Positions 1 through 64,000 of a stretch of 64,000 bases of DNA are shown here, in pieces. Under the pieces are notes generated by a model that was not told the origin of the DNA, did no database searches, and saw nothing but the letters and a program-made list of their open reading frames with translations. The translations under genes were made by a program, and so were the position numbers. Source of the DNA: Apium graveolens (lineage: Eukaryota; Streptophyta; Magnoliopsida; Apiales; Apiaceae); assembly GCF_009905375.1 (NCBI RefSeq), contig NC_133648.1, positions 25,897,376 through 25,961,375 on the forward strand, read 5' to 3'. How positions within the stretch are numbered: position 1 is the stretch's first letter; the number at the start of each line of letters is the position of its first letter.

Positions 1-774
1 AATTACTAGCTACTACCTGGTTTATATAACACCAAGTTTACAAGTGAAGACAAAGATAAAGTACAATAAGACAATAGTTATCCACTTGTTTCTGTTCCAT
101 TTTTATCCAGTGTAATATGGAATTATCTGTTGACTTTCCATTTTGAACCAGACTAAAAACGGCTGCTTTTTCTGCTGTTCCTGAAATAGGCTACCACATC
201 TCTGTCAATCCATGTGCCTCTGTCAGCTTTGTTAACTGTCACTATCAACTACTATGAGACTGAGCATCCGTTGAAGCTTTCATCCGTTGATGGCTTTATC
301 CGTTGATGCTCTAGCAGTGCATCCGTTGAAGCTTTCATCCGTTGATGGCTTTATCCGTTGATGCTCTAGCAGTTGAAGCTTTATCCGTTGAAGCACTTAT
401 CCGTTGATGGATATTATCCGTTGAAGCATTAGAGGCATCCGTTGAAGCTTAGTTTCTCATCCGTTGAAGGTCTTCAATATCCGTTGACACTTCTTCACTT
501 ATACAAAATTACAAGGCATGAAATATTTACAATTAGCCCTCCTATTTGTACATCCATTAGTAGTCAACATGACTGATTATCTCCTAATAACATCTAAGAA
601 TTACAGCTTAAAATCAGAGAGTGAGATGTGCTACAATACCAAACTTATTGCTAAGTAAGGCTACTCCTTCAACGGATAGCCAAGATGGTCTTATCCGTTG
701 AGGCTACAAATACTAGATTTCTACTTAAGTGTTTTACTGAACTTATCATCAAACTAATACACATATTCCTAACA
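1..774 (-). mobile_element. Element A 3' LTR (partial, Sirevirus-like Ty1/copia)
   Basis: This stretch matches 12152-12925 base for base in length (774 bp) with about seven substitutions counted by eye. It is therefore the second LTR of a minus-strand element whose outer end lies left of the window. It ends in TAACA next to a polypurine tract. It holds 14 exact copies of ATCCGTTGA or its reverse, including a 55-bp tandem duplication. Low LTR divergence indicates a recent insertion. Confidence 0.95.
264..701 (-). repeat. ATCCGTTGA/TCAACGGAT motif array in A LTR U3
   Basis: Exact copies of the nonamer start at 266, 282, 298, 321, 337, 353, 383, 399, 416, 437, 459 and 479. A reversed copy is at 669 and another forward copy at 693; the last two form an inverted pair. 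Spacing is irregular except for a 55-bp duplicated block (266/282/298 repeated at 321/337/353). On the element's coding strand the array lies upstream of the LTR TATA box. The identical array recurs in the 5' LTR at 12415-12852. Confidence 0.95.
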
Positions 775-788
775 ATCTCCCCCTATTT
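775..788 (-). other. Element A polypurine tract
   Basis: On the minus strand a purine run containing GGGGGAGAT directly precedes the LTR. This is where plus-strand cDNA priming occurs in LTR retrotransposons, and it fixes the 3' LTR boundary at 774. The same GGGGGAGAT is found before the LTRs of B and F. Confidence 0.85.
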
Positions 789-962
789 ATGTCTACTAGA
801 ACTGTAGGCATAAATTTGTGTTTAGCTTGATGATAACAAAACACTTAACAAATATATTAACTGTAACAAAGCAGAAATTCAAAAGTGCTGCAAAAGTGTA
901 TATGCTGAGATGAAATTGAAGAAGTGCATTATTTCCAAGGGTGCTCCTTTAGCCTGAGCAAA

Positions 963-3900
963 TTACTTTCTTTTCCTTTGATCCCTGGTTTTCTTTCCTA
1001 GCCTCCTGTCATTCTCCTCTATTTGAAGTTGAAGTTGTCTGTAGAATTCAGCTTCATCTTCTTCATTGATATCTAACTTAGATTGCATATCCTTGAGAGT
1101 TTCATTACTGGCAATCTTTAGCTGATCTTCAATTCTGAAAAATATTCTGACTCCTTTGTTGTCTCTGAACTCCATCAACTAATGAGGTGATTTGTGAATT
1201 GTAATACCTCTCTCTGGAATGAGTAAGGTTCTAGGCAAAGCATTGGGCTCCCTCCAAGTTTTCCTTATGTTGGCAATCTTGTTGAGAATCTCAGTCCTGG
1301 CAGTTCTGGTAAAGCCAGAATCCTTATGTATGGCTGAGTAGACTCTAATCAAGGTAGTGTAGCCTTCATTCAGAATTCTGTGAAGAGGCCATGTTCTTTC
1401 CCCAGCTCCTTTGTATTTGAACACTAGTCTTTCTGGTAGCTGTCTGTAGGCAGCTATTCCCCTTACATCCTCCAGCTCATCCAGATAGAGTTCAATGTCT
1501 GAAAATTCTTTTATGTCACAGATGTGAACATAATCATCTTTAGAGTTTTGAGGTTTGGACTTAGGCTTTTGTGTGAATTTGATTGAGGCTTTAGAGGGTG
1601 TTGATTTGATTCTTCTTTTCTGCTTCTTTGATGGTGGAGAAGAGGTTAGGAAGGTGGGCAATTTGATGGTGTCCCAATCAATTGGTTCCTCCTTGGGAAT
1701 GATTGTTTCACCATAAATGTTCATGAAGGGGTCAGGTACAATGTGTTCAGGAATAAAGGGTAGTGGTTTGGATATTGATTGGGTTTCTTCAGTCTTATCT
1801 ACCTTCTTTCTCTTTGCATTGACCTTCTTTCTTTTCCCTTTCTGCCATTCTTCCTTACTTCTTTCCTCCATCTCAGTACCAACCATGTCCCCCATAGCTT
1901 CATCTTCACCTTTGTCTTCAATTACTTTCTGATCATCAGCCTGACTTGACTCTAGCTGTTTTTCAAGCTTTGCTTGTGCTCTTTTGTCAGCCTTTAGCTG
2001 TTTGGCTTCTTCCTTTAACCTTTTGGTTTCTTCCTTCTTGGCTATTGAGAATTTGGGATGTCCTTGCATCACACATATGCTCTTTCCCTCTCTGAAAATA
2101 ATAGCCACGTTTCTCCTTACAGCCTCATCCATGGTCTCTTTGAGATATGCAATACTTCTTCCTAAAAGCTTGTCCTCATCTGCTTTTGGAAGAGGAAAAT
2201 CCACCTCTTTTAGAGGATTCTTTGTAGAGTCCTTATTGGATCTGTTGTTGGGCTTGAGAACCATAGGTTGCAGATCTTTGGAAGAAGTTTCTCCATCCTT
2301 ATGCCTCCCTACTGGCTTGAGTTCCATAATAATTGATTCCACTTTTGTGCTATGCTTCACAGATTGTGATTGAGAAGTTGTAGAACCAAATATTAGTTGC
2401 ATCTTTTCATCAATCTTCTTCCTTTGCTCTTTGACTTGCAATTCAGCTGCTGCTATCTGGATTAGATCAATTCCATCTAGCTTTCCTTTGACTTGAATTG
2501 GTGGAGAAGTTGTGATGACAGGAACTAGCACTTGAGAAATCTGAACTGTTGTAGATGGCTCTCCTTCCCCTTTATTCTCCCCCTTTTTGTTATCATCAAG
2601 GGTAGGGGTCAAGCCTTGTGCTTGTGCCAGCTGCATGAGTAGATTTGTTTGAGTTTGTTGATTCTGAAGAATGGTGACCATAGAGTCTTCAATGATTTGA
2701 ACCCTATCTTCCAATCTGGCCAGCCTTTTGTCAGCATCAGAGGCCTTCCTTAGTCTCCCCAACAAATCTTGCATAGTACCATAGGGTATAACTGAATCCA
2801 ATTTCTCAGCATTGTAGGATTTCAGATCAGCAATATCCAGCTTGAGCTCATCCACACTTAGATTGTGCTGGTAATGCTGCAACTGCAAGAGATGCAGAGA
2901 TTCCAGATGAGCTTGAAGAATTGCCTTGATACCAGCATCCTGAGTCTCCTGAATGGCCTGCTGAATTATCATGACTTGTTTGTCCAAAGTGACACCAAAC
3001 TCTCCTGGTGTTGATGGTTTTGCCCATGACCATGCAGGAAGATTAGGAACAGAACTTGGGCCTGCTACTCCCCCTAAGTTCATGCTCTCATTTAAAGAAT
3101 TAGAGTCATCATCATTAGAATTTACTCCAAATTCTTCAGATGGCTCACCAGCTTGAGAAGGCAGCCTGTTGACAGCAGCTTTGTCTCTGAGAAAAGATTC
3201 TGAAGTGTGTACAATGTGTAGTGTCTGTTCTGCCTCCACATTGCCCTGTGCAGCCAATAATTGATAGGCTAAAATAGGGTGAGTAAAAGTGTCAGCATCC
3301 AAGGAAATGTTATCAATGACAGCTTTGTAGTGTTGCTGAAATTGTCTTCCCTTATCTGCATCATCCACTTTCATTAACTCACTAGCAATGGCTGGATCCA
3401 ACCTTATAGCTTCTGTACCTGCCTTTCTCTCAATTTCTCTCTTTTCTTGCATCAGGGGCTCCCCCTGGCTCACACACACCCTCACATCCTCACCTTCACC
3501 TTCTAAGGTGGCACTCCTCTCACTTACTTTTGCCATGCTGGAAGAAATAACATGCATTTGGTGACTCTCAACCTCTCCTTTTTCCTGGGAGCAACCCAGC
3601 CTCTCACTCAAAAAATCACTCCCTTCCCTCAAGTCTAAAAGTGATTGTACAGTTGCCATGTCCTCTACAGTTGGAGTTGTTTCTGTTAAGTGTGTAGAGG
3701 CCATCAACGGATAGGGAGTATCCGTTGAAGTGGAAACTGATGCTATCAACGGATAACTGCTGTTAAGCTTATCCGTTGAAGAACAACCACTTGTCAACGG
3801 ATGAGAGATATCCGTTGAAGAAGGAAATGATGTAGAGACAGAAAGTGATATAATTGTTGAATCTGCGTGGATTGATTTTAAGTGAGGTGACACAGATTCT

Positions 3901-5472
3901 GTAACTACATCTGAAAGAATTGGCTGATGATCCAACAAATCATCTAAAAGATGATGATCACCAGGTTTTGAGTGGGGCTCCTCCCTGAGTTTTAATGAGG
4001 GAGAATCAGGAATTGATGTGAATATCATATCCACATCCAGAGAGGGTGTAGGAGAGTTTGAGGAATGGTGTGTGTCTATATTGAGAGAATGGGGCTGTGA
4101 TTCCATATTTGCTGGAATCACATCAAGCAGATTTTGAGAAGGCACATATACTGGTTGGTGTATCTGTGCTGTGTGTGTCCCTTGTGTGGAAACTAGGGTT
4201 TTGGCCTTCTTCTTCCTTGAAAAGGCTTGAATTGGTGAATGTGTAGCTTCAGTTTCCCTCCCTCTTTTGTTCTGTGTCCCTGGATGGGGACTATTTTCAA
4301 TAGTTACATCCTTTTGGGAGGATGCAACTAGGGATGTGCTGGACTCCTTTTGAACCACTACAGTCTTTTGAGAGACTGTGGCTTGGCTGGAATGGGTACC
4401 ACTCACCTCTCCCACCTTATCATGGGGGGCTTTTTGATGTTCACCCCTCCCCTCACCACTCACACCCTGTTCACTCCCTTCAGGGTTTATGGTAGTTGTT
4501 ACAACTGTTGTCTTTTGAGAAACAACAGAGGTAGGTTTCTTTGACTTGACTTTGGAGATTTTAGATTTGGTGGCTTTGGTAGGAGCCTGTTTGGACAATG
4601 ACACAGGTTCCATAGCCACACTAGAAGGTAAAGAAACATTGGGGTTGGAAATAGTAGGAGTTATAGAAACATTTACCTCACTTACCTGTGGTGCATTCAT
4701 GATTGGCAAGTATACCAATGCCACCTGGCTGTTGAGGTTCATTCTCAAAAGGTCTGCAAGGACCCTTTTCTCTTGTGCCCAGCATTTGAGTTTATTATTC
4801 TTATTGGATATAGCCAAACCTTCAGCAACATGGTTAGCCAATAACATAAAGAATCTAGCAAAGTAGATGTTATGTGGTCTATTAGCTTTGTTACCTAATC
4901 TGGAACCTAATTCTAGCATAACACAGTTGCTAAAATTAAAGTACCTATCAGCAACTAGCATATAGAGCATATTAACAAGAGATTAAGTGATAGCATCAAA
5001 ATTGCTAATATTCCCAGAGAAAACCTTAATGAAGGCATCTCCAAGAAAACTCCATTCTTTCCTAAGGCCTTTCCTTCTAATACTACCTAAACTAGCAGAA
5101 TCAAAAGCATAGCCTATGGAATCTAGCATAGCAGAGACATCTTTATCAGTGTGTGGTGTCATGGCATTGTTCTCAGGCAACTTAAAGCAAGATTGTAAAT
5201 CATCACAATTAATGCAATAGTCCTTACCTTTGAGAGAGAAGGCAATGGTCATATCTGTGGAGTTGAACTCTGCAGTTGTCCAAATCTCCTCAATCACTTC
5301 ACAGTAGATGGTTGGGGCTTCCAGCATAGCATAACTCAGTTTGCAGTTCTTGATGAAGTCCATCATCTTGTGATAATCAGAATGGGGCTTCCTTCTTTTC
5401 AACCAAGACTATGAAATTATTCTTTTCATAAACAAATCATGTTTGAGACATAATTTTGACTACTGGTGCCAT
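963..5472 (-). pseudogene. Element A accessory ORF (env-like by position), interrupted
   Basis: A long ORF lies between pol and the 3' LTR, the position of the accessory or 'env-like' ORF of Sireviruses. Open pieces are 5402-4983, 4970-1179 (1263 codons) and 1178-963, all in one frame. The stop at 1179-1181 is TAG where element B has a Trp codon. Another in-frame stop sits at 4983. The likely start is the ATG at 5472-5470, followed by a TGA and a frameshift within about 30 codons. The N-terminal ~250 residues form a domain shared with B, E1 and, distantly, F (conserved phrases LNMLYMLV-like and YYARFF-like). The middle is Ser/Thr/Pro-rich and low complexity, then come a coiled-coil-like segment, Lys-rich patches and a conserved C-terminal block (ERLVFKYKG). 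I see no signal peptide or membrane segment, so a true envelope role is unsupported. The N-terminal domain may resemble the 'putative plant transposon protein' family; that needs a profile search. Confidence 0.8.
3704..3818 (-). repeat. Three inverted motif pairs inside the A accessory ORF
   Basis: TCAACGGAT at 3704, 3746 and 3794 is each followed by ATCCGTTGA at 3720, 3771 and 3810. This gives three successive potential hairpins with 9-10 bp stems and loops of about 5-16 nt. All six copies are exact and lie in open coding frame in the Ser/Thr-rich middle of the protein. Element B carries its own motif version (CCGACGGAT) at the matching place (14715-14815). Confidence 0.9.
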
Positions 5473-5756: not shown

Positions 5757-5924
5757 ACGGGACACATCAACGGATAAGGTAAATAGTTATTCGTTGATGA
5801 ACAACACTATTTTATCCGTTGAAGGATAAAATTACCAGAAATGTATTTGTCTTTCAACGGATAATGAATATCCGTTGATAGAACAATTTTGGATTTCAAC
5901 GGATAGGGAATATCCGTTGATAGG
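5757..5924 (-). promoter_or_regulatory. TCAACGGAT motif cluster in the A pol-aORF spacer
   Basis: Exact nonamers start at 5767, 5814, 5854, 5870, 5896 and 5912, with diverged copies between 5715 and 5800. The pairs 5854/5870 and 5896/5912 are inverted and could fold as hairpins. The cluster lies upstream, on the coding strand, of the putative TATA box at 5581-5572. This repeats the LTR arrangement of motif array followed by TATA. The rest of 5473-6004 shows no gene. Confidence 0.8.
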
Positions 5925-6004: not shown

Positions 6005-9000
6005 TTATGAATAGTTAAGCATACCTAACTCACTTACTAATCTTGTGAATATTGATTCATCAAGTGGCTTGGTAAATATGTCTGCAATCTGCTTTTCACT
6101 TGGAACAAAATGAAGTTCCACTGTACCTTTCATCACATGTTCCCTAATGAAGTGGTACTTGATATCAATGTGCTTGGTTCTTGAGTGCTGTACTGGATTT
6201 TCAGTAATGGCAATGGCACTTGTGTTGTCACAAAATATTGGAATTTTGTCAACAATTATACCATAGTCAAATAACTGATTCCTCATCCACAGTATATGTG
6301 CACAGCAACTACCAGCTGCAATGTATTCAGCTTCAGCTGTTGATGTGGAAACAGAATTCTGCTTCTTGCTGAACCATGATACAAGCTTGTTTCCTAGAAA
6401 TTGACAGGAGCCTGTTGTGCTTTTCCTGTCTAATTTGCAACCTGCATAATCTGCATCTGAGTAGCCAATTAGATCAAAACCAGACTCTCTAGGGTACCAA
6501 ATTCCTAGATTTGGAGTCCCTTTGAGATATCTGAAAATTCTTTTAATAGCCACTAAGTGAGATTCTTTAGGGTCAGCTTGAAATCTAGCACAGAGATATG
6601 TAGAAAACATAATATCAGGTCTACTGGCAGTTAAATATAAAAGTGAGCCAACCATGCCTCTATAACTTGTAATATCCACAGACTTTTCAGCCTTGTTTAA
6701 TTCAAGCTTGGTGGCAGTGGCCATGGGAGTTTTTGCAGGTGAACAATCCATTAAGTCAAACTTCTTTAAAAGATCATAAATATATTTAGTTTGACTAATG
6801 AAAATTCCACCACTAACTTGTTTAACTTGTAAACCAAGAAAGTAAGTTAGCTCTCCCATCATGCTCATTTCATATTTACTTTGCATTAATTTTGCAAACT
6901 TTTTACAAAGTTTATCATCTGTAGATCCAAATATAATATCATCTACATAAATTTGTACAAGTATCTTAGAGCCATTAACATTTCTAAAGAAGAGAGTTTT
7001 GTCAACAGTACCTCTTGTGAAGTGATTATCTAGAAGGAACTTTGATAAAGTCTCATACCAGGCTCTAGGTGCTTGCTTTAGTCCATAGAGTGCTTTCAAC
7101 AGATAATACACATGGTCTGGAAAATTTGGATCTTCAAAACCTGGAGGTTGGCTTACATAAACTTCTTCCTCCAATTCCCCATTTAGAAATGCACTCTTGA
7201 CATCCATCTGATAGACTTTGAAATTGGCATTAGCTGCATAGGCTAGAAAGATTCTGATGGCTTCAAGTCTTGCAACTGGAGCAAATGTTTCATCAAAATC
7301 TATTCCCTCTTGTTGAGAATAGCCTTTGGCAACTAATCTGGCTTTATTCCTTATGACAATGCCATTTTCATCCATCTTGTTTCTGAATACCCATTTTGTG
7401 TCAATAGAATTCTTGTTCTTTGGCTTGGGTACCAGCTTCCATACTTTGTTCCTGTCAAATTGGTTTAGCTCCTCTTGCATAGCTAAAATCCAATCTGGAT
7501 CCAAAAGAGCTTCTTCCACTCGCTTAGGTTCCTCCTGTGATAGAAAACTACTATACAGACATTCATCTTGAGTAGCCCTTCTAGTTTGTACTTTAGATGT
7601 AACATCACCAATGATCAGTTCAAAAGGGTGATTCTTGGTCCATTTCCTTTGAGGTGGTAGATTAGCCCTTGATGAGGTTGCCTCAGTATTGTCATGATGT
7701 GAGATAGAATGTTGATTTGTTGAAACTCCCCCTGATTTGTTGATCCTTTGAAAGGAATTGGGAGTTCTATGAACTGATGAGGTGAAGTGATTATCCGTTG
7801 ACAGACTGTGATCAACGGATGCTTCGTTATGAACTTCAACAGATGATGCACTTTGTCTTTCAACGGATGCTGCATTGCTTCTTTCAACGGAAGCTGAATT
7901 TTGACTTTCAACGGATGCAGCATTCTGTGCATTATCCAAAGGCAGACTCTGGTTTCTTCTTGAGATGCCTTCTTCATCAATCTCATCTTCACTATCATCA
8001 CAATATATCTCAATATTGTCAAATTTGAGTTCTTCATGATGTCCCTCATCTGTTAGTCCATCAATCTTTTTATCATCAAACACAACATGTACAGATTCCA
8101 TGACAATGTTGGTTCTTAGATTGTAGACCCTATATGATTTTCCAGCAGAATAACCAACAAATATTCCTTCATCAGCCTTTGCATCAAATTTTCCTTTGTG
8201 ATCAGATTGATTCCTTAAGATGTAACATTTGCAACCAAAGACATGTAGAAAGTTTAAAGTTGGTTTTCTTCTCTTGAATAATTGATAGGGAGTCATGCAT
8301 TTTGCTTGATTGATTAGAGAAATATTCTGAGTGTAACATGCACAGTTAACAGCCTCAGCCCAAAAATAAGTTGGGAGCTTTGACTCCTCAAGCATTGTCC
8401 TTGCAGCTTCAATTAGTGATCTATTCTTCCTTTCCACCACACCATTTTGTTGTGGATTTCTTGGAGCTGAGAACTCATGCATGATCCCATTTACTCCACA
8501 GAACATCTTCATGGTTGAATTCTTGAACTCAGTTCCATTGTCACTCCTAATATTCCTTACTTTGAAATCAGGATGATTGTTGACTTGCTTGATATGATTG
8601 ATGATTATTTCACTAGCTTCATCCTTTGATCCAAGAAAATAAACCCATGAAAACTTTGAGAAATCATCTACAATCACTAGGCAGTATCTTTTCCTTGAAA
8701 TTGACAATACATTGACTGGTCCAAAAAGATCCATGTGTAGAAGTTGCAGTGGTTCATCAATTGCAGATTCAAGCTTCTTACTGAATGATACTTTCTTTTG
8801 CTTTCCTTTCTGACAAGCATCACACAGTCCATCCCTTGTGAATTCCACTAGAGGTATTCCTCTAACTAAGTCCTTTTTGACTAGATCATTCATTGTTTTG
8901 AAATTCAAATGGGACAGCTTCTTATGCCATAGCCAACTTTCAACTGTACTTGCTTTGCTGAGAAGACAAGTAATGGATTCTGCATCTGTAGAGTTGAAAT

Positions 9001-9349
9001 CAGCTAAGTACACATTTCCTTTTCTAACTCCAGTTAGAACCACTTTATTGTCCTTTTTACTTGTGACAATACAGGCTTCAGAATTGAAGGAAACAGTATT
9101 CCCTCTGTCACATAGTTGACTGATGCTCAATAAATTGTGTTTGAGACCATCAACCAATGCAACTTCATCAATGATGACATTTTCTTTTGAAATCAAGCCA
9201 TATCCCATAGTGAATCCTTTGCTGTCATCTCCAAAGGTTATGCTAGGGCCAGCTCTCTCCTTAAATTCTGTGAGCAGAGTGAAATCTCCTGTCATGTGTC
9301 TTGAACAGCCACTGTCCAAGTACCATAGATTCCTTCTTTGTCCCTGCAC
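6005..9349 (-). CDS. pol: Element A Pol polyprotein (PR-IN-RT-RNase H), intact
   Basis: This open frame of 1114 codons encodes all Ty1/copia pol domains in order. The protease has DSG at residues 12-14. The integrase zinc-binding site is H142, H147, C176 and C179. The integrase catalytic triad is D207, D270 and E306, with 35 residues between the last two, as expected of retroviral-type integrases. An IN-RT linker holds ASVE repeats. Reverse transcriptase follows with YVDD near residue 800, then RNase H (DADY, TAEAEY, CDNTSA). No stop or shift is seen. No ATG opens the frame: the first sense codons follow a TGA at 9361-9359, and the gag C-terminal frame ends at TGA 9365-9363. Pol must therefore be made by stop bypass or frameshifting, which is usual for Gag-Pol. 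Its neighbours are gag upstream and the accessory ORF downstream. With nearly identical LTRs, this is the best-preserved replication module in the window. Confidence 0.95.
7793..7916 (-). repeat. Translated motif repeats in the A IN-RT linker
   Basis: Exact ATCCGTTGA/TCAACGGAT copies start at 7793, 7812, 7860 and 7908, with one-base variants near 7836 and 7884. Read in frame they give ASVE-type tetrapeptides spaced about 8 residues apart in a flexible linker. B/E elements carry SSVGRQ-type repeats here, the translation of their own CATCCGTCGG motif. The DNA word is therefore kept in each family while the peptide differs. Confidence 0.88.
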
Positions 9350-11813: not shown

Positions 11814-11815
11814 AT

Positions 11816-12925
11816 TGTTATTCCCAGTGGACTAACAATGAGATTTACAGAAGGGGGGGTTGAATGTAAATCTCAAAACTTTTTCAAGTTTTGAGCAGTT
11901 TGTGAGACTAAGTGTTTGAGTGATCAAATGTGTGTGAATTGCTTGGAGCTGATGCAGACAGATATATATTCAAACACAAATGTAATGAACACAAAGAACT
12001 TAAAAAATTTTCTGGTGGATTTGTTGTTCCACCAGAGATGTGTTATTTCAGAAAATCTGTGATTCAAAATTAAAATACAGCTGCTTCCTAGTACAAACTA
12101 GATGATTTTCTCTCTTGATATTTCTAAACAGCTCAGGGAAAATTCACATCTAATTACTAGCTACTACCTGGTTTATATAACACCAAGTTTACAAGTGAAG
12201 ACAAAGATAAAGTACAATAAGACAATAGTTCTCAACTTGTTTCTGTTCCATTTTTATCCAGTGTAATATGGAATTATCTGTTGACTTTCCATTTTGAACC
12301 AGACTAAAAACGGCTGCTTTTTCTGCTGTTCCTGAAATAGGCTACCACATCTCTGTTAATCCATGTGCCTCTGTCAGCTTTGTTAACTGTCACTATCAAC
12401 TGCTATGAGACTGAGCATCCGTTGAAGCTTTCATCCGTTGATGGCTTTATCCGTTGATGCTCTAGCAGTGCATCCGTTGAAGCTTTCATCCGTTGATGGC
12501 TTTATCCGTTGATGCTCTAGCAGTTGAAGCTTTATCCGTTGAAGCACTTATCCGTTGATGGATATTATCCGTTGAAGCATTAGAGGCATCCGTTGAAGCT
12601 TAGTTTCTCATCCGTTGAAGGTCTTCAATATCCGTTGACACTTCTTCACTTATACAAAATTACAAGGCATGAAATATTTACAATTAGCCCTCCTATTTGT
12701 ACATCCATTAGTAGTCAACATGACTGATTATCTCCTAACAACATCTAAGAATTACAGCTTGAAATCAGAGAGTGAGATGTGCTACAATACCAAACTTATT
12801 GCTAAGTAAGGCTACTCCTTCAACGGATAGCCAAGATGGTCTTATCCGTTGAGGCTACAAACACTAGATTTCTACTTAAGTGTTTTACTGAACTTATCAT
12901 CAAACTAATACACATATTCCTAACA
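11816..12925 (-). mobile_element. Element A 5' LTR (1110 bp)
   Basis: On the minus strand the LTR runs from TGTTAGG at 12925 to AATAACA at 11816. The TATA box (TATATAAA) is at 12179-12172 and the motif array at 12415-12852 lies upstream of it, so U3 is motif-rich. It differs from the visible 3' LTR by about 7 of 774 bases. The flanking bases GCTAA (12926-12930) are the probable target-site duplication; the partner is outside the window. Confidence 0.95.
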
Positions 12926-12940
12926 GCTAATTTCTGAGAT

Positions 12941-12950
12941 AGTATAAAAG
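12941..12950 (+). promoter_or_regulatory. Putative internal TATA box for the B accessory ORF
   Basis: AGTATAAAAG lies 107 bp before the ATG at 13057, followed by a pyrimidine-rich leader. It is identical to the boxes of A and E1. The upstream motif cluster expected from E1 has been cut off by the insertion of element A. Confidence 0.65.
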
Positions 12951-13056
12951 TAAATTCACTTTTATTCATTTCTTTTATCATTCTCAAGATTCAATTGCTC
13001 TAATTTCTTTCTTCTCAAAAGCAAACTCTCTCTCTACAAATTCCAAACCTCGAACA

Positions 13057-52760: not shown

Positions 52761-53424
52761 AAGACATTCCCGTTTGGTTCCCGCTCCGGGCCACACTCAC
52801 GCTCCCTGATCCCCCGAATCCTGTACTGGGTTGGGAGGCCGTCCCCCTGACAAACTTACTAGGGATGCTCTCCCCTCCTAAACTCCTGCTTCGACCATCA
52901 AACTTTCGTTTCTTAGTTTGCTTCATCTTCTGGCTCATTTCACTCCCTGTTTCAACTATTGTGGCCTTCTGCACTAGGGTGGCATAGTAAGTTATCTCCA
53001 GAATTGCTAGCTTGTTCTGAATCCACTGCTTCAATCCCTGTTAAAATCTCTCAAGGTTTTGCTTTTCGGTGCCCATCAGCTGTGGCACAAACCTCGATAA
53101 TTCCGTGAACTTAGCTTCATATTTCGCTACGCTCATATTCTTTTTTTTCAGCTCTAGGAACTTTCGCTGCATCTAAATCTCCATAAACTTCGGGACATAC
53201 TTCTTTAAAAACAACTCAGTGAATCTTTCCAAAGTAACAATCCCTCGGGCCTCCATATTTTTCTTGGCTTCCCACCAATAGTTAGCCTCATCCTTTAAGA
53301 GATAAGTGGCAAAATTAGTCATGTGGGCTTCCTCGGTGCCAATTCGCTCAAAGGTCTTTTCTACCTCTTTCAGCCAAGCCCTGGCCTGAACTGGGTCAGC
53401 AACACCGTGAAACTCAAGTGGAGT
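52711..53424 (-). pseudogene. G2: gypsy gag, N-terminally truncated
   Basis: The retrotransposon gag core is shown by VQARAWLKEVEKTFERIG and DEANYWW. The basic/Ser-rich region before the knuckles is in 53034-52711. Stops near 53040 and 53173 break it. At its N-terminal side it joins E1 copia pol within the shared word CTCAAGTGGAGT (53413-53424). No 5' LTR is present. Confidence 0.82.
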
Positions 53425-56245
53425 ATACTAAGGATGGATTGTGTGATGCCTATCAGAGATCAAAGCATCATTCAAAAAGAAGCTTGATTCAACAATTGAA
53501 GAACCTTTGCAATTGTTGCACATGGATTTGTTTGGACCAGTAAATGTGTTGTCCATCTCAAGAAAAAGATTTTGCCTAGTAATTGTGGATGATTTCTCAA
53601 AGTTCTCTTGGAAAAATTTTCTATAGTCCAAAGATGAAGCTAGTGAAATCATCATCAATCACATAAGGCAAGTCAACAATCATCCTGACTTTAAAGTAAG
53701 AAGAATCAGGAGTTACAATAGAACTGAGTTCAAGAATTCTGTGATGAGATCATTTTGTGAAGAGAATGGGATTATGCATGAGTTTTCTGTAGCAAGAACT
53801 CCACAATAAAATGGAGTAGTGGAAAGAAAGAGCAGATTTCTTATTGAAGCTGCAAGGACAATGCTAGAAGAATTAAAGTTGCCAACATATTTTTGGGTTG
53901 AAGCTGTGAATACTGCCTGCTGCACTCAGAATATCTCTTTGGTTAATCTAGAAAAGTGCATGACACCCTACCAATTGTTCAAGAACATGAAGCCAACTCT
54001 AAATTTTCTTCATGTCTTTGGCTGCAAATGTTATATCTTTAGGAATCAAACTGATCAACATGAAAAGTTTAATGCTAATGTAGATGAAGGAATTTTTGTT
54101 GGATATGATGTGGGAAAAGCATATAGAGTCTACAATTTAAGAACCAACATTTTTATGGAATCAGTACATATTGTGTTTGATGATAAAAAGATTAAAGGAC
54201 TGCAAGATGGAGATTTCCAAGAAAGCCTCAAGTTTGTTAATGTGGAGATGGTAGTGATGACAGTGATGATGAAAGCGATCAAGAAACATTGAATAAGGAT
54301 AATGCAGAAAAATCTACATCTAATGAAGCACATAATTCAACATCTGTCGAGTTACAAAATGCTTCATCCGTCGGGAGATAATCTTCCTTATCCTTCAGGA
54401 GATAATCAGCTTCATTCGTCAAGATACAAAGTGCATCATCTGTTAGAACAATGAGAGAAACTGAGAGTCAGAACATATCACCTACAGAAAGTACCCCTTT
54501 CTCAAATTAAAGATTCACAAACTTAGGGGGAGTTTCTCACAATCAAAACTCAGTCACACATCAAGACAACAATGAGGCCTCTTCATCTAGAGCTAATCTA
54601 CCTCAAAAAAGAAAATGTACTAAAGATCACCCTTTTGAGCTCATCATTGGTGATGCATCTTCTAGAGTTCAAACAAGGAAAGCAACTCAAGAAGAATGTC
54701 TATATAGCAACTTCCTTTCTAAGGAAGAACCAAAGAAGGTAGAAGAAGCTTTGTTGGATCCTGATTGGATTTTAGCTATGCAGGAGGAGCTAAACCAGTT
54801 TGAAAGAAACAAGGTATGTAAGCTGGTACCCAAACCTAAAGGAAAGAATCCAATTGACACCAAATGGGTATTCAGAAACAAGATGGATAAAAATGGCATA
54901 GTGGTCAGGAACAAAGCTAGATTGGTTGCTAAGGGCTACTGTCAACAAGAAAGAATAGATTTTGATGAAACTTTTGCTTCTGTTGCAAGACTTGAAGCCA
55001 TCAGAATCTTCTTAGCCTATGCAGCTCATGCCAATTTCAAGGTCTATCAAATGGATGTCAAAAGTGCCTTTCTGAATGGAGATTTGGAGGAGGAAGTCTA
55101 TGTTAGTCAGCGTCCTGGTTTTGAAGATCCAAATTTTCCAGAATATGACTACTTTCTTTTGAAAGCACTTTATGGATTGATGCAAGCACCTGGAGCCTAG
55201 TATGACACTATATCAAAGTTTCTTTTGGAAAATCACTTCACAAGAGGTATTGTTGATAAAACTTTATTCTTTAGAAATGTTAATGGCTCTAGTATACTTG
55301 TTCAAATTTATGTAGATGATATTATATTTGGCTCCATGGATGAAAAACTTTACAAAAAGTTTGCCAAATTGATGCAAAGTAAGTATGAAATGAACATGAT
55401 GGGAGAACTAACTTACTTTCTTGGTTTACAAGTTAAGCAAGTTAGTGATGGAATATTCAGTAGTCAAACTAAATATATTTATGATCTTTTAAAGAAGTTT
55501 GATCTAATGGATTGCACATCTGCAAAAACTCCCATGGCCACTGCAACTAAACTTGAATTAAATACTACTGAAAAGTCTGTAGATATTTCAAGCTATAGGG
55601 GCATGGTTGGCTCACTTCTGTAATTAACATCTAGTAGGCTAGATATAATATTTGCTACTTGTCTCTGTGCTAGATTTCAGGTTGATCCTAGAGAATCTCA
55701 CTTAGTAGCTATAAAGAGAATTTTCAGATATCTCAAGGGAACACCAAAACTTGGCATTTGGTACCCTAGAGTTTGATCTAACTGGTTATTCAGATACAGA
55801 TTATGCAGGTTGTAAAATAGACATAAAAAGTACAACAGGAACCTGTCAATTTCTAGGGAACAAGCTTGAGTCCTGGTTTAGTAAAAAGCAAAATTCAGTT
55901 TCTACTTCTACAGCTGAAGCTGAATATATTGCTGCTGATAGTTGTTGTGCACAAATTTTGTGGATGAAAAACCAATTGTTGGACTATGGTCTACAAGTTG
56001 ACAGAATTCCCATTTTCTGTGATAATATAAGTGCAATTTCCATCACTGAAAATCCATTGCAGCATTCAAGAACAAAGCACATAGACATCAAGTACCACTT
56101 CATTAGGGAACATGTGATGAATGGTACTGTGGAACTTCATTTTGTTCCAAGTGAAAAGCAGCTTGCAGATATCTTTACCAAGCCACTTGATGAATCCACC
56201 TTTTCAAGGTTGGTAAGTGAGTTAGGTATGCTTAATTATTCTTGA
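53413..56245 (+). pseudogene. pol: Element E1 integrase, RT and RNase H, interrupted
   Basis: Homology resumes at the integrase zinc domain (DGLCDAY, where E2 has DGLCDAC). The IN core is broken by stops, including TAA at 53807 where the ancestral codon is CAA. 53819-54292 covers the end of IN. The linker (about 54300-54650) has decayed SSVGR-type motif repeats. RT pieces are 54751-55200 (ends TAG where A has Trp) and 55225-55623, with an intact YVDD near 55310. RNase H is 55751-56245 ([33 protein letters not shown]). A TAA at 55621-55623 and a frameshift near 55750 separate RT from RNase H. Confidence 0.88.
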
Positions 56246-56334
56246 ATTATTTCAGATATTTTTGCAAGTTATAAAGCAACCGGAAACTTAATTGATTTTT
56301 CTATTTTTGATGGAATTTTGGCTAAGTCAAAATT

Positions 56335-56546
56335 TACATCCCGGCGGATGCTCATAATCCATCGAGTTTGATCATCCGTCGGAATATTGTTTATTAATAA
56401 TAATCAATTACTTTTTTGGATTAATTTACAACCTGACGGATAATTGTTCTATCCTCATCCGTCGAATTGTCTCAATCTTAGCCGTTAAAACTCTGAACAT
56501 TATCCACCGGGTATACTTACAGTTTTGTAAGTATCACACGACGGAT
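56335..56546 (+). promoter_or_regulatory. ATCCGTCGG-type motif cluster in the E1 pol-aORF spacer
   Basis: About seven copies of CGGCGGATG, ATCCGTCGG, TGACGGAT, ATCCGTCGA and CGACGGAT types lie here in both orientations. They stand 220-430 bp before the accessory ORF start and upstream of the TATA-like box at 56654. A has the same layout with its own motif. 56246-56768 otherwise holds no gene. Confidence 0.78.
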
Positions 56547-56653
56547 AATTGACAATATTTTGACAGTTTATTTATTTTTAAACGGCTATTTTGGGCTATT
56601 TTGATTGGTTACTTTATTTCACTTTATTATTTTTGACAGTTTATTTCTGAGAT

Positions 56654-56663
56654 AGTATAAAAG
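56654..56663 (+). promoter_or_regulatory. Putative internal TATA box for the E1 accessory ORF
   Basis: AGTATAAAAG lies 106 bp before ATG 56769, followed by a pyrimidine-rich leader with CTCTCTCTAC. It is the same decamer at the same spacing as in A and B. Confidence 0.65.
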
Positions 56664-56768
56664 CCGAGTTCATTTTTATTATATTCTTTTATCATTCTCA
56701 AATTAATTGCTCTAACTCCTTTCTTCTCAAAAGCAAATACTCTCTCTACAAATTTCCTTAATTCAACA

Positions 56769-58706
56769 ATGACACCAGTAGTCAAAATTATATCTCAGTC
56801 TGGGTTCATCTATGAAAATAACAACTTCGTAGCTCTTGTGAACAAGGAGATTCCACAATCCGGAGACTTTCACAAAATGATAGATTTTGTGAAGAGCTGT
56901 AAACTCAGTTATGCTATGCTAGAATCACCTACAATCCACCGTGAAGTTGTGGAGGAGATATGGACAATTGTTGTGTACCAATCTTCTGACAAGACCATAA
57001 CTTTCACTCTTAAAGGTAAGCAATTTTGCATTAATAGTGACATTATCAAATCATGCTTTAAAATTCCAGATAACACTACTACTTTTCCATACACTGATGC
57101 TAATTTAGTTACCATGCTAAATTCTATGGCTATGCACTTTCTACCTCTAAGTTATGTGAGGTTAGGAGGCTAGGTCTTAGAAAGAAATGGAGCTATTTGT
57201 GTGATGTGGTAACTAAGGTATTTTCTGGTAAAGTAAGTAATTTTGATTCTGTTAACATTTCCATGCTTAACATGCTTTATATGCTAGTTACTGATAAGTA
57301 CTTTAACTTCAGTGACATGATCATGTTTGAGTTAGGTTATAAGTTAGGGGAACTTAATAAGAGAGATAAAAGTGTCTATTATGCTAGATTCTTTATGATG
57401 CTTACTAACCATCTTATTGAGGATATTATTGTTGAGAACCCAACCAATAAATTGAATTGTTGGGTTCGAGAAAGGAGAATCATTGCAGATCACAACAGAG
57501 CAAGTCACCACAAATAGGTGCCCCTATTCTATTTTCCAATCATGGAGGGCCCTCAGGTAAGTGAGGTAAGCACCACTTTCTCCACTCTTCCAACCTCAAA
57601 AATTTCTTTTCCTTCAAGTGTAGCTATGGCATCTGTGTCATTGACCCAACAGATGCCTACCCAAGCTACCAAAATAACAACATTAAAATCCAAAGCTAAG
57701 AAAACCCCCTCTGGTTTTTCTCAAAAGAAACCAGTTGCAAAAACTACAAAACACAAAGAGGGGAGTCTGAAGGAGAGTGGGTTAGGTGAGGGACTGGGTA
57801 AAAATCAAAGAAACCCTAAGGATAAGGCTGGTGAGATTAGTGTACCTAAGCCTAGCCATACCATAGTTTCCCAACAAATTGTGGTTGTTAACAAGGAAAT
57901 CATCTCAATTCTAGTTTCATCCTCTCAACAGGATGTTACTATTGAAGCAAGCTCCCAACCAGGAGCACATGCCAAGAGGGTTAGGGACACAGGTTCACCA
58001 CATACTTATGCTAGAAAGAAAAGATCCAAAACCCTTGGGGATGCACATGGAACATACACAGTGCAAACTGGAGCCAAAGACTCAGTCACTGCACCATCTA
58101 AAAGTCAGCTTGATGTGACTCCAATAAATATGGAGTCACGGCCAAAATCATTGATAACCAAAGCACCTGAAACACCAAATTCACCCATACACTCACTGGA
58201 TGTAGACATGATTCATACATCACTTCCAAATTCGCCATCTTTAACTTTATTGGAGAAGCCAAAAATCACAAGTGAGCATCATCTTTTAGATGATTTGTTG
58301 GCTCACTTTCCAATTCTTTCTGAGTCTATTGAGACATTTGTGCCCAAATTTTCATCAATCTGCACATAGTCTACAATGGTCTCCACTCCAAACTCATTCA
58401 TTTCTTCTATCCCGGTGGATATTATTCATCCGTCGAGTAGTGATTGTATCCCAACGGATGTGCCTAACAGCAGTCATCCGTCGGCTAGCCAAACTACTAT
58501 CCCGAAGAATGTTCCTCATTTGTCGGTACTCTCTACACAACTTCAAATCCCAACAATTATCACAAGTGCAGATGATCTAGTAGTAGTACAATCACTCTTA
58601 GGACTGAGGGCAGGAAGTGAATTGAGTGAGAGGCTGGGTTGCTCCCAGGAAAAAGGAGAGGAAATGAGTGAACCAATGCAGACCATTTCTTCAGGTCTGG
58701 CAAAAG
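56769..58706 (+). pseudogene. Element E1 accessory ORF, interrupted and cut by E2
   Basis: ATG 56769 opens 134 codons of the conserved N-terminal domain. A one-base deletion near 57130 shifts the frame to 57197-57517, which ends at TAG where B has GAG. The same frame resumes at 57518-58369, ends at TAG where B has GAA, and continues from 58376 until element E2 begins at 58707. The protein matches B closely. The motif-bearing Ser/Pro-rich segment (58410-58510) is present. The C-terminal half should lie beyond E2, outside the window. Confidence 0.85.
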
Positions 58707-59485
58707 TGTTAGGAACATGTTGTGAACTTGATGATAAGTTAAACAAAACACCTTAGTAGATTTAACTTAGTGAATTTTGTAGCACTCGACGGGTGATCAA
58801 ATATAGTCCCGACGGATGACAAATTGACATCCACCGGGTGAGTAGCTTACGTAATAATAAGATTTTTAACACATTTCTGCAAAACAACTTTGTGTAGACT
58901 CTATAGGAGCATATGAGTTATGTTGACTATAGTGGATATGCATAATAGGTTGATTAACTATAAATATAAGATGTCTTGTAATTCTGTATAAATGAAATGG
59001 AGTCAAGTGACAAATAGCTACCCGACGGATGATCAACAAAGCTACCCGACGAATGATCAATAAAGCTACCCGACAGATGATGAGCATGTACCCGACGGAT
59101 GATCAAATTCAAATATCTGTTGATAGTGACAACACAGTCACATGTGTTGGGTGTTTGTAAAAGGAATGTGGCAGCCTTTTAAGCAGGGATTTTAGAACAA
59201 AGAAGTTTTACCATTTTCATGCTATTGTGAAGATATTCAAAGATATTGGAATAGAGTAGTGAAGTAACATGTAGTTAGACTAGATATGTTTTATTTTATT
59301 ATCTTGTCTTATTTTCATATAAACTTGAAGATATATAAACCAAGTGTAGCTAGTAGAACAATTAACTAAGCACACATATTTTCAGAGAAAAATTTTCAAG
59401 TTGGATTCTATAACATTTATTTGTAATTTTAGTTGTTCAAACTTGTAAGCAGTTGTGAGCTATTCAAGCTTCACAGGGTTCTCAT

Positions 59486-59532
<47 letters not shown>

Positions 59533-59737
59533 GATACTTTCAAATCCACCATAAAATTTTAAAAGCTTGTGTTTTTATTACTTTGTGTTTGATTCATTTA
59601 ACTCAGACATTCCGCACTCTGCAAATCAAACACTTATATATTTATTAAGGAAGAACTGTTTTAAAATCTTGAAAAAGTAGCCGGAATTACATTCAACCCC
59701 CATTCTGTAATTCTTGCTGTATTGTTAGGGAATAACA
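58707..59737 (+). mobile_element. Element E2 5' LTR (1031 bp)
   Basis: It starts TGTTAGGAACATG inside the E1 accessory ORF and ends AATAACA before a primer site. CCGACGGATGA copies lie at about 58786-58840 and in the tandem block 59019-59105, upstream of TATATAAA at 59332-59339. A (TA)n run follows at 59489-59526. AAAAG at 58702-58706 is the likely target duplication; its partner is outside the window. Confidence 0.93.
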
Positions 59738-59739
59738 AT

Positions 59740-59751
59740 TGGTATCAGAGC
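59740..59751 (+). other. Element E2 primer binding site
   Basis: TGGTATCAGAGC is the exact tRNA-iMet complement two bases inside the LTR. Confidence 0.92.
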
Positions 59752-59799
59752 AAGCTCTTGAAGTACAAAGAGTGTAAAGATCTCAACAAACAGCAAGAT

Positions 59800-62163
59800 A
59801 AACAAGAAGGATGTTGGAGTCAAAATTCCATTTGTGGACAAAGATAATTATCACCACTGGAAGGTGAAAATGCACCTACATCTTCTTTCCCAAGATGAGG
59901 CCTATGTAGATTACATAGAGAGAGGTCCTTATGTACCAATGAGACCTGCAACAGGAAATGAACCATCTGTTACCAAGCCTAGGCATGAATGGTTAGATCC
60001 TGATATTGAGCAAGTCAGGAAAGACAAGAAGGCCATGAATATATTGTTCAATGGAGTTGAAGGTGATATGTTTGATAACATCTTTAACTGCAAAACAGCC
60101 AAAGAGGTTTGGGATACAATCCAGATTATTTGTGATGGTACTGAGCAAGTAAGGGAGAATAAGATGCAGCTGCTAATTCAACAATATGAGCACTTCTACT
60201 GTGAAGAAAGTGAGTCTCTCACTGATATTTTTAGTAGATTTCAAAAGCTACTAAATACTCTGAAGTTGAATGGAAGAGTCTATCAAACAAAAGACTCTAA
60301 CCTCAAGTTCCTTTGATCTCTTCAAAAAGAGTGGAAGCCAATGACAGTCTCATTGAGAAATTCTCAGGATTACAAGGAGTTCACCTTGGAGAGATTGTAT
60401 GGCATCCTAAAAACTTATGAGCTTGAAATAGAGCAAGATGAGAGGATGGAGAAAGGAAGGAAGAAATGAGGGCCCATAGCACTAGTTGATGAGTTAGAGA
60501 AAGAGAAAGAGATGAATAGAAGTTGTTGAGTCTACATCAAAGGTTTGTGAAAGCAAGGGAAAAGGGCTGGTAGCTGAAAATGAAGATCATCTGAGCCAAG
60601 ATGACATGGATGATATTGATGAACATCTAGCATTCCTATCCAGAAGATTTTCCAAGCTCAAATTCAAAAAGAATTTTGGAGCAGCCAAGCCAAGTATAAA
60701 CATGGTGGATAAATCCAAATTCAAATGTTTCAAATGTGGCTTGGCAGGGCATTTTGTAAGTGAATGTAGAAAGTCTGATTCTAGCAAGAAGAAGTTTGAG
60801 CCTGTTGACTATAAACATAAATACTTTGAGTTGCTCAAATAAAAGGAAAGGGCTTTCATCACACGGGAGAATGATTGGGCTGTAGATGGTTTGGATGAAG
60901 ATGAAGAAACAAACTATGTCAATCTAGCCCTGATGGCCAAGTCTGATAAAATAGAAACAAGTTCTTCAAGTAATCAGGTAATCACCACTAACCTAGCACA
61001 TTTATCTAAAGCTGAGTGTAATGATGCAATCAATGACATTTCCACAGAATTATATCACTTGCGTGCACTTAAGTCCCTCACTAAGGAAAATGCTAAAATT
61101 AAAGAAAACAATTTGTTTTTAAGTGAGAGGAATAATGTGTTAGAGTCTCAGTTTATTGAATTTGAAAAATTAAGAATTGAATGTAAGATTGCTAAGGATG
61201 AATTAATTGTGTCCTTGAAGAAAGAAGAGATTTTGAAGAAGTAACTTAAACGAGAACAAGAGGTGATTAAGGCATGGAAATCATCCAGAGATGTCCATGC
61301 TCAAATCACTAAAGTTCAAGGTATTGAGTCCTTTTGTGATGCAGCCTGAAAGAAGAGTAAGGAGAAGCTGAAATCTAATTTGGTTGAAGGATTGTTGACA
61401 GATGTGGACTCGACGGATGAAAGATTATCCGTCGAGTGATAAAGAGCCACATCCGTCGGCTGTGAGTAAATATGTGAGCAAAGTTAAGCTTGCCAAGCTG
61501 AATGAGAAATATGGATCAGTTTCCAAAAACTTTGTTCCAGGAGAATCAAGTCAAGTGAAGAAGGAGAAGAAAGTTAATGTTGGTCATCTGTCCATCAAGC
61601 AATTGAATGACAGATTAGAAAAGATTGAGGTTAAAGCAAAAGCTAAAAAGAAACACAATAAAAATGGGAAAGTAGGAATTAACAAGCATAACAACTACAC
61701 ACCTGATAAATATGCACCAAGAAAAATATGTGTTAAGTGTGGTAGTGTTAATCACTTGTCTGTTAATTGCAAGCTTGCCATGCCTACTCCTATATCTGTA
61801 CCTTCCTCTTTTCCCAACATGAATGTTATACCTGCCATGCCTATGAATGCTATATCTACTCAGAATATGAATGCACAATTTGTTAATATGCCATTTGCAC
61901 CTAATCCTTATTATGCTACATTTAGTATGCCTCAAATGCCATTTAGCATGCCTTACTGGGATAACATGTTTGCAAACAACATGCCTTTTCCTGTTAATCA
62001 AAATATGCGTGATAATTATGTTCTAATGACTGGTCTCAAAGGTCCAACTCAAATGACTAAGGATGAATAAGAAATTCCCAAGTCAATGAAATCAAACCTA
62101 AGAAACCAAAGAAGAAAGCTAACTAAGCAGGACCCAAGGAAACTTGGGTACCAAAATTAACTT
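59800..62163 (+). pseudogene. gag: Element E2 Gag, interrupted, start codon lost
   Basis: The position matching the E1 start ATG reads ATA. Open pieces are 59834-60316 (ends TGA where E1 has AGA), 60606-60842 with an intact knuckle (CFKCGLAGHFVSEC, ends TAA for CAA), 60891-61244 (coiled-coil-like) and 61402-62070. The last carries a second knuckle (CVKCGSVNHLSVNC) and a Met/Pro/Asn-rich tail. The gag frame ends near 62163 after the ETWVPK motif. It supplies the reference for the region lost from E1. The motif pair CGACGGAT and ATCCGTCG is at 61408-61456. Confidence 0.85.
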
Positions 62164-62179
62164 GATTTGATTTTGATGT

Positions 62180-64000
62180 GTGCTGGGAAACAAAAAGAAT
62201 CTTTAGTATCTGGATAGTGGTTGCTCAAGGCACATGACTGGAGATTCTACCCTGCTCACTGAGTTCAAGGAAAGAGCTGGCCCAAGTATTACTTTTGGAT
62301 ATGACAGTAAAGGTTATATTGTGGGATATGGCTTGATTTCAAAAGACAATGTCATCATTGAAGAGGTTGCCCTAGTGGATGGTCTCAAGCATAATTTGTT
62401 GAGTATCAGCCAGCTTTGTGATAAGGGCAATTAAGTAACCTTCAATTCAGAAGCCTATGTTGTGACAAACAAAAAGAGCAACAAAGTGGTTCTCACTGGA
62501 GTGAGAAAAGGAAATGTGTATTTAGTTGACTTCAACTCATCTAATGTAGATATTGTCACTTGTCTTCTCAGTAAAGCAAGTCAAGATGAAAGTTGGCTAT
62601 GGCACAAGAAGCTGTCCCATTTAAACTTCAAGACTATGAATGAGCTTGTCAAGAAAGAGCTGGTAAGAGGAATTCCTCAAGTGGAGTTTACTACGGATGG
62701 ATTGTGTGATGCCTGCTAGAAAGGAAAGCAGATCAAAGCATCATTCAGAAAGAAGCTTGATTCAACAATTGAAGAACCTTTGCAATTGTTACACATGGAT
62801 TTGTTTGGACCAGTCAATGTGTTGTCTATCTCAAGGAAAAGATTTTGCCTAGTTATTGTGGATGATTTCTCAAAGTTCTCTTGGACATATTTCCTAAATT
62901 CTAAATATGAAGCTAGTGAAAGCATCATCAATCATATAAGACAAGTCAACAATCATCCTGATTTTAAAATAAGAAGAATCAGGAGTGACAATGGAATTGA
63001 GTTCAAGGATTTTGTGATGAGATCATTTTGTGAAGAGAATGGGATTATGCATGAGTTTTCTGCAGGAAGAACTCCACAACAAATGGAGTAGTGGAAAGAA
63101 AGAACAGATCCCTTATTGAAGTTGCAAGAACAATGCTTGAAGAATCAAAGTTACCAACATATTTTTGGGCTGAAGCTGTGAATACTGTTTCCTACACTCA
63201 GAATATTTCTTTGGTTAATCAAGCAAAGTGCATGACACCCTATCAATTGTTCAAGAATAGGAAGCCAACTCTAAATTTTATTCATGTCTTTGGCTGCAAA
63301 TGTTTTATCTTGAGGAATCAAACTGATCAACATGGGAAGTTTGATGCTAAAGCAGATGAATGAATTTTTGTTGGATATGTTGTGGGAAAGGCATATATGG
63401 TCTACAATCTAAGAACCAACATTGTTATGGAATCAATACATGTTGTGTTTGATGAACAAAAAGATTGAAGGACTGCAAGATGGAGATTTCCATGAAAGCC
63501 TCAAGTTTGATAATGTAGAGATGGTTAGTGATGACAGTGATGATGAAAGTGATCAAGAAACAATGAATAAGGATAATGCAGAAAAATTCTATAATTAATG
63601 AAGCACATAATTCAACATCTATCGAGTTACAAAATGCTTCATCCGTCGGGAGACAACCTGCCTTATCCGTCGGGAGACAATTAGCTTCATCCGTCGGGAC
63701 ACAAAGTGCATCATCCATCAGAATATTAAGAGAAGCTGAAAGTCAGAATAGATCACTTACAGAAAGTTCCCCTTTCTCAAATCAAAGATTCACAAACTCA
63801 GGGGGAGTTTCTTATAATCAAAACTCAGTCACACATCAAGACAACAATGAGGCCTCTTCATCTAGAGCTATTCTATCTCAAGAAATAAAATGGATTAAAG
63901 ATCACCCTTTTTGAGCTCATCACTGGTGTTGCATTTCTAGAGTTCAAACAAGGAGAGCAACTCAAGAAGAATGTCTATATAGCCATTTCTTATCTAAGGA
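62180..64000 (+). pseudogene. pol: Element E2 Pol (protease-integrase, start of RT), interrupted, runs off window
   Basis: The protease site [11 protein letters not shown] follows a TAG (62204) where A has Trp. 62234-62434, 62462-62719 and 62780-63091 carry the protease end, the zinc site (WHKKLSH ... CDAC) and the integrase core with the catalytic Asp residues ([17 protein letters not shown]). TAG at 62717 replaces CAG, and a one-base loss near 63082 disrupts QQNGVVE. 63091-63363 continues integrase. 63576-63914 is the linker with SSVGRQ-type motif repeats, leading towards RT. The rest lies beyond the window. Confidence 0.85.
63638..63720 (+). repeat. Translated CATCCGTCGGGA repeats in the E2 IN-RT linker
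   Basis: Copies of TCCGTCGGGA(G/C)ACAA lie at about 24-30 bp intervals and give repeated SVGRQ or SVGTQ peptides. Element A has ASVE repeats from TCAACGGAT at the same protein position. Confidence 0.88.

Follow-up and report, generated by a model that had tools for sequence, protein, structure and literature searches.

Copia retrotransposons in the window (the whole stretch of DNA analyzed here, 64,000 nucleotides) carry short motifs, a different one in each family, and in element A and its relatives B, E1 and E2 the motif recurs at corresponding places in LTRs, noncoding spacer and genes. We put the probability at roughly 60% that these nonamers serve as double-stranded DNA sites for a single sequence-specific factor in each element family, a putative activator or anti-silencer. 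Among the evidence for this reading, motif copies at aligned places differ in concert between families, and the copies within genes far exceed the number expected from the encoded protein and its codon usage.

Retrotransposons and motif clusters in the window

Element A (1-12925, minus strand) contains gag, pol and accessory ORFs between LTRs that are 99.1% identical over 774 bp. Its 5' LTR (11815..12925, minus strand) is ∼1111 bp long on the assumption that the primer site marks its end; the primer-site-like TGGTATCAGAGC at 11802-11813 is what we take to be the plant initiator-Met primer site word. Fourteen motif copies lie at 12417-12852 (LTR positions 74-501). Downstream of them come a TATA-like TATATAAA, at LTR position 747, and a second TATATA, at position 958. 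The 3' LTR (1..774, minus strand) is cut by the window edge, with only 774 bp inside, and has 14 copies at 266-701. In the gag ORF (9518..11755, minus strand; PF14223), four copies at 10063-10129 are translated as STD, STD, YPL and HPL. The pol ORF (6005..9349, minus strand) encodes integrase and then RT, the Ty1/copia order, and the linker between these domains holds four exact copies, at 7793-7916, read as SVE, SVE, SVD and STD; interspersed with these are two decayed copies (SVE). Six copies are clustered at 5767..5920 (minus strand) in the spacer between pol and the accessory ORF, where the nonamers of two inverted pairs are 7 bp apart, and another six at 3704-3818 alternate in orientation (STD / HPL or YPL) within the accessory ORF itself (aORF; 1179..4970, minus strand). 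Cluster centers, at 12639, 10100, 7859, 5848, 3765 and 488, are thus 2.0-3.3 kb apart. This copy of the aORF looks broken: the N-terminal domain of relatives is encoded upstream, on the far side of a stop codon and starting in a different frame, and the ORF stops short of a C-terminal tail present in relatives. The closest relative of the gag protein is P0033 of Apium graveolens (97% identity over 85% of the query).

Elements B, E1 and E2 are related copies oriented opposite to A and partly disrupted by insertions. The 3' part of B (12926..18935, plus strand) comprises an aORF region with sites at 14724-14755 and an LTR from 17894 with CCGACGGAT-type copies at 17996-18310. The 5' LTR of E1 is interrupted by element C; its first part (34037..34406, plus strand) has CCGACGGAT at 34392, and its second part, followed by a truncated gag (47458..49771, plus strand), has CCGACGGAT at 47489. 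The gag piece stops at ∼49771, short of the homologous gag cluster. Pol, spacer and part of the aORF follow at 53413..58706 (plus strand), with sites at 54366, 56374-56546 and 58428-58484. The stretch between the gag and pol pieces (49772-53412) differs from the surrounding copia elements in encoding, at 50391-51851 on the minus strand, an RT of RVT_1 type together with RNase H. E2 (58707..64000, plus strand; LTR, gag and pol, cut by the window edge) has exact sites in the LTR at 58809, 59022 and 59092, and sites in gag at 61413-61459 and in the pol linker at 63641-63697. Element C (34407..47457, minus strand), a copia element of more distant relationship that has inserted into the E1 LTR, has a motif of its own, GGYAWGACA, mostly followed by AT. 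All 19 matches to it in the window are in C, where the motif occurs in the LTRs and in the spacer before the C aORF (39850-40133); the coding regions of C show no motif cluster and a single isolated match at 41596.

An exact search of the window returned 49 copies of TCAACGGAT/ATCCGTTGA. Element A accounts for 48 of these, the number that an earlier sequence-only reading had estimated, distributed as it had said: 14 in each LTR, six in the spacer, four in gag, four in the integrase–RT linker and six in the aORF. The remaining copy, at 46689, sits in one LTR of C amid that element's own motif copies. That reading had also judged the density to be beyond chance, and dinucleotide shuffles of A bear this out (mean 0.03, maximum 1, n = 200). 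For one LTR plus the interior of A, a second-order Markov model predicts 0.09 copies, compared to 34 seen. The B/E motif, CCGACGGAT/ATCCGTCGG, has 17 exact copies in the window, confined to the B, E1 and E2 pieces and present, as had been proposed, in LTR, gag, linker, spacer and aORF. These exact counts understate the B/E sites, because many read TCGACGGAT or variants such as TCGATGGAT and CCAACGGAT. When nine segments were each put through 200 dinucleotide shuffles, neither motif type exceeded one copy in any of them. The motif of each family is, in line with the same reading, essentially restricted to its own family within the window.

Aligned motif copies differ in concert between families

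In gag, linker and aORF, the A clusters and the B/E clusters occupy the same aligned places. The spacer clusters also correspond in place, without a one-to-one alignment of sites. Pairing the coding sites of A with every B/E copy aligned to them, and dropping none, gave 24 pairs in gag, linker and aORF; these are not independent, because B, E1 and E2 share ancestry, and because several gag, pol and aORF frames of B/E are broken, 'coding' is assigned there by homology. Base 3 of the motif changes from A to G in 20 of the 24 pairs, against a background A-to-G rate of 0.111. Base 1 changes from T to C in 14 pairs and is retained in eight. Base 8 is unchanged in all 24 pairs and base 9 in 22, compared to a background identity of 0.65-0.72. 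Thirteen of the 14 exact coding sites of A have one or more B/E copies with G at base 3; the exception is the lone plus-strand site in the A linker, which neither E1 nor E2 conserves. One factor binding all of the sites is the simplest account of this coordinated change, and replacement family by family favors a factor that is probably encoded by the element.

Proteins of other relatives contain footprints of the motif. A search with the aORF protein gave 29 matches, of which 14 were aligned. Generality across relatives does not hold: C has no coding cluster, and the footprint is retained in five of the aligned aORF proteins and absent from nine, all from Heracleum, where a different motif, unrecognized here, could take its place. 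In the celery aORF protein P0004, the three PL sites all read PS, as expected for E-type sites. In carrot, all three PL sites in each of two aORF proteins read QL, accounting for three of the four Pro-to-Gln changes among 67 aligned prolines in P0012 and for all three among 34 in P0023; both retain all three STD. By comparison, the ENA aORF protein P0010 retains PL at the motif sites, and 4 of 59 prolines elsewhere are Gln. The nonamer TCAACTGAT fits STD, and its reverse complement, ATCAGTTGA, fits QL/HQL. These data suggest that the carrot relatives carry a third version of the motif, TCAACTGAT, as read from carrot protein sequence only.

Carrot-type gag proteins P0045, P0095 and P0111 each contain HQL twice, at sites that do not align column for column with the PL sites of A. 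Other carrot gags read HPL, YPL or YPS, and hence there are several families in carrot; the gag and aORF readings are not linkable to one carrot element. P0045 is filed under Rhizophagus irregularis and resembles carrot retrotransposons; it may represent carrot contamination, the source maybe being carrot root culture. P0047 (gag), P0148 (pol) and P0010 come from contigs of equal length (17854) and probably belong to one element. P0047 and P0010 combine STD with PL, and the P0148 linker combines STD with SVD.

A host transcription factor, of the MYB class for example, could also bind the sites, had the element recruited it for LTR and internal enhancers and had different families come to use different factors. 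The Myb consensus is YAACKG, and both TCAACGGAT and the inferred TCAACTGAT contain a fitting hexamer (CAACGG/CAACTG), whereas CCGACGGAT and the C motif GGYAWGACAAT fall outside it. Mainly stress-related host sites were recovered for the repeated motif (RM) boxes of Sireviruses, according to the excerpted text of Bousios 2010 (PMC2829016). However, coordinated replacement at dispersed sites would require a family to switch host factor, and we regard this explanation as doubtful.

Orientation of the motif copies

The sequence-only reading had likened the motif to palindromic clusters and had allowed for a factor that binds either DNA or RNA. Neither point stands well. In element sense, the 5' LTR of A has 13 copies in plus and one in minus orientation, and so its sites are nearly all direct repeats; the internal copies of A comprise nine plus and 11 minus. 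Sites acting in RNA, as hairpins or as a packaging or translation signal, would suit the four inverted pairs of the spacer and aORF, which, with 7 nt between nonamers, could fold as 9-bp hairpins. Yet gag and linker have only one adjacent inverted pair each, the orientation inside A is mixed, and, if the TATA-like box marks the start, the transcript would lack most of the LTR copies at its 5' end, since they lie upstream of that box. Action in RNA therefore appears quite improbable. Double-stranded DNA is the more fitting target, given direct repeats ahead of a TATA-like box and internal copies facing both ways; of the earlier proposal, it is the single-factor part that survives.

CpG dinucleotides are concentrated in the motif

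In one LTR plus the interior of A, 34 of 50 CpGs are inside the motif, and the observed/expected (O/E) ratio outside it is 0.03-0.04. Taken separately, the interior has 35 CpGs compared to ∼410 expected (20 in the motif; O/E outside, 0.04), and the 5' LTR has 15, 14 of them in the motif (O/E outside, 0.03). Across codon boundaries in the ORFs of A, C is followed by G six times versus 148 expected. Of the 17 leftover CpGs in 1-12925, at least four are in near-copies of the motif. Outside the motif, O/E values are also low in the interiors of B (0.06), E2 (0.04) and the E1 pieces (0.09 and 0.15), and are 0.30 and 0.43 in the B and E LTRs. For C, the values are 0.34 in the interior and 0.62 in the LTR, and other DNA of the window gives 0.62.

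TpG/CpA O/E is 1.34 in the interior of A versus 1.21 in C, which suggests that CpG loss in A comes partly from deamination of methylated CpG. CWG, also a methylation context, is not depleted in A (O/E 1.39), and hence selection against CpG outside the motif is possible too. Under deamination or selection alike, the motif CpGs of A are retained. The remaining CpG of the motif is intact at all 48 exact sites in A and decayed in several B/E copies; given this difference in CpG state, we reject methylation decay as a full explanation for how the A and E motifs differ. The motif version inferred for carrot contains no CpG, and thus the CpG itself is not essential.

The clusters might instead be CG-methylation or siRNA features of host silencing, of no use to the element. 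Loss of nearly all CpGs outside the motif in A is compatible with this, as is the description of RM clusters as CpG islands in the excerpts of Bousios 2010 (PMC2829016). However, host silencing leaves nothing to retain 34 intact CpG motifs in an otherwise depleted element, and the lack of CpG in the carrot version counts against it as well; we consider it very unlikely.

Motif copies within genes exceed codon-preserving expectation

The sequence-only reading had proposed codon-preserving shuffles as a check on the coding copies. We performed 5000 shuffles per gene of A, preserving protein and codon usage, and the observed number of motifs was reached in none of them for any gene (gag, 4 versus a mean of 0.09; pol, 4 versus 0.14; aORF, 6 versus 0.05). 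Within the ORFs of A the nonamer occurs in both orientations and in three frames, giving STD, Y/HPL or SVE/SVD; this argues for selection on nucleic acid rather than peptide. The coding nonamers thus seem to be kept by selection on DNA, even where the peptide changes. Codons wholly inside the motif are ACG for six of six threonines, compared to 1 of 174 elsewhere in the ORFs of A, and CCG for five of five prolines, compared to 0 of 119; this contrast partly restates the CpG result and is not separate evidence, because the whole of element A avoids CpG.

Protein-level repeats or slippage, with short tandem coding duplications and nucleotide identity as a by-product, would be in keeping with the 8-codon (24 bp) period of the A linker array and the 16-30 bp spacing of 12 of the 14 LTR copies, but this scarcely credible explanation is rejected by the reading frames and the codon-preserving tests, and it also leaves unexplained the spacings that are not multiples of three (five of five in the aORF, one of three in gag) and the sharing of the nonamer with the noncoding spacer and LTR.

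Sirevirus features and searches beyond the window

Element A has the copia gene order and a copia-type gag, with PF14223 in gag and, in pol, PF00665 at 199-299 followed by PF07727 at 634-877; a search with the linker matched the pol of maize Opie3 (P0171). In Sireviruses, the polypurine tract (PPT) octamer starts 10 bp upstream of the 3' LTR, as stated in the available part of PMC2829016. The octamer AGGGGGAG lies at 777-784 (minus strand) in A, at that 10-bp distance from a 3' LTR that begins at 774. Sirevirus octamer clusters consist of several copies near the 3' LTR, mostly within 0.5 kb; A has four between pol and the 3' LTR (777, 2577, 3068 and 3459), one of them within 0.5 kb. The same octamer also occurs in the integrase–RT linkers of A (7726-7733, minus strand, where it encodes SGGVS), E1 (54525-54532, plus strand) and E2 (63800-63807, plus strand), and it could serve there as a central polypurine tract.

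A scan of viral contigs for the inverted pair matched three contigs, by a rough estimate through chance, and pol searches of viral contigs found no relatives. A genome-contig search matched 35 stretches, two of which encode relatives: L004, with 48% pol identity, and L005, with 28%. L004 (NZ_VCHY01000042.1) is filed under the bacterium Labilibacter sediminis and encodes a plant-like copia gag-pol; it looks like a plant Sirevirus-like element present as contamination in a bacterial assembly. Its linker (4156-4253) contains AGGGGGAG four times, a number reached in 0 of 1000 synonymous shuffles.

For L004, with L005 left out, nine words from the noncoding part were counted in gag and pol, and the counts were compared with those in 500 synonymous shuffles. 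CAGAAG (gag, 15 versus 6.0; pol, 14 versus 4.0) and CAGAAGA (gag, 10 versus 3.6; pol, 10 versus 2.0) were matched in none of the shuffles of either gene. Shuffles of gag and pol reaching the observed number were 5 and 1 for ACAGAAG, 24 and 15 for AACAGAAG, and 41 and 13 for ACAGAAGA. AACTTC was weakly enriched in gag only (27 of 500 shuffles), and ACTTCT, ACTTCTG and ACTTCTGA were not enriched in gag or pol by the same comparison. These words lend weak support to coding-region motif enrichment in a distant Sirevirus-like element, weak because they are short, overlapping and AT-rich.

DISCUSSION

Bousios 2010 (PMC2829016) describes, in the portions available, palindromic RM boxes in the LTRs of 13 Sireviruses and mainly upstream of ENV in nine ENV-bearing ones; in Osr10 and HOPIE a few more occur where ENV begins. 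The boxes form CpG islands, in several elements the only ones; CpG islands are also predicted in pol of Osr9 and Osr8, and the role of the repeated motifs is left open there. The motif of A resembles these boxes in being element-specific, present in many copies, and located in the LTR upstream of the TATA box and before an env-like ORF. The RM unit is palindromic, however, with a CGG-CCG core (PMC2829016), whereas the unit in A is a non-palindromic nonamer with a CGG core, its LTR copies are direct half-sites, and regular inverted pairs are found only in the spacer and aORF. The motif of A is thus RM-like in place and number, and not a strict RM member. It differs from the boxes, as these are presented in the same excerpts, in having further clusters in gag, the integrase–RT linker and the middle of the aORF, in sites that align between two families and have changed in concert, and in holding two thirds of the CpGs of the element. 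The earlier suggestion that spread into coding regions was undescribed therefore needs narrowing: the LTR and pre-env clusters and a few ENV-start boxes are published, and none is described in gag or the integrase–RT linker in those excerpts. The open-access literature, in the parts surveyed, likewise describes no gag or linker clusters, nor coordinated change between families.

How might a single factor per family act? Sites are clustered at the enhancer position of the LTR and then every ∼2-3 kb, at the end of gag, in the integrase–RT linker, in the spacer and in the middle of the aORF. Binding would switch on the LTR together with a promoter ahead of the aORF, and/or protect the whole element from silencing, as VANC proteins protect VANDAL transposons. 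The first candidate for the factor would be the aORF protein. NLS-like basic stretches were found in all eight aORF proteins checked (by a loose pattern, applied without a control), and six of the eight have no 19-residue window above 1.6 in hydropathy, a value exceeded only in P0007 and P0010. A known DNA-binding fold for this protein received no support: Pfam returned only sub-threshold Transposase_32 matches in two proteins and no DNA-binding fold, two structure models were poor (mean pLDDT 53 and 51), and a fold search and a PDB sequence search yielded nothing usable. What env-like and accessory ORFs do in plant retrotransposons is, according to PMC11728184, still unknown.

Element-encoded binding of this kind has precedents. 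Foamy virus Tas/Bel1 is an activator that the virus itself encodes and that binds DNA both in the LTR and at an internal promoter within the coding region; it is like the proposed system in this combination of sites, although the retroelement is unrelated. VANC proteins recognize short, family-specific, multi-copy motifs of VANDAL transposons, and co-evolution of the two has been proposed (PMC5735166 and PMC10398659, as excerpted). Shared with VANDALs are a short element-specific motif, its many copies, and differences between related families, seen here among A, B/E and C. In contrast, VANDALs as described in those excerpts are DNA transposons with noncoding sites and a motif, YAGTATTAY, that lacks CpG, whereas A is a retrotransposon with coding sites too and a binder that is only proposed.

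A spacing of 2.0-3.3 kb between clusters would suit a VANC-like factor that keeps the whole element open. A bolder, tentative proposal, to which we give somewhat less than an even chance, is a VANC-like self-recognition code, in which a sequence-specific anti-silencer or activator encoded by the aORF would bind sites across the whole element, genes included. Its specificity and dozens of sites (TCAACGGAT, CCGACGGAT and TCAACTGAT in different families) would shift together as families split, while the interiors of A and its near relatives shed most CpGs outside the sites.

Aligned coding sites that switch together offer a direct handle on this proposal, in that element proteins can be set against three natural versions of the motif, and the near absence of CpG outside the motif makes methylation of the sites a testable switch. 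If the proposal is correct, these elements would represent a retrotransposon counterpart of VANC anti-silencing, and selection at the DNA level would override protein sequence at sites dispersed through their genes.
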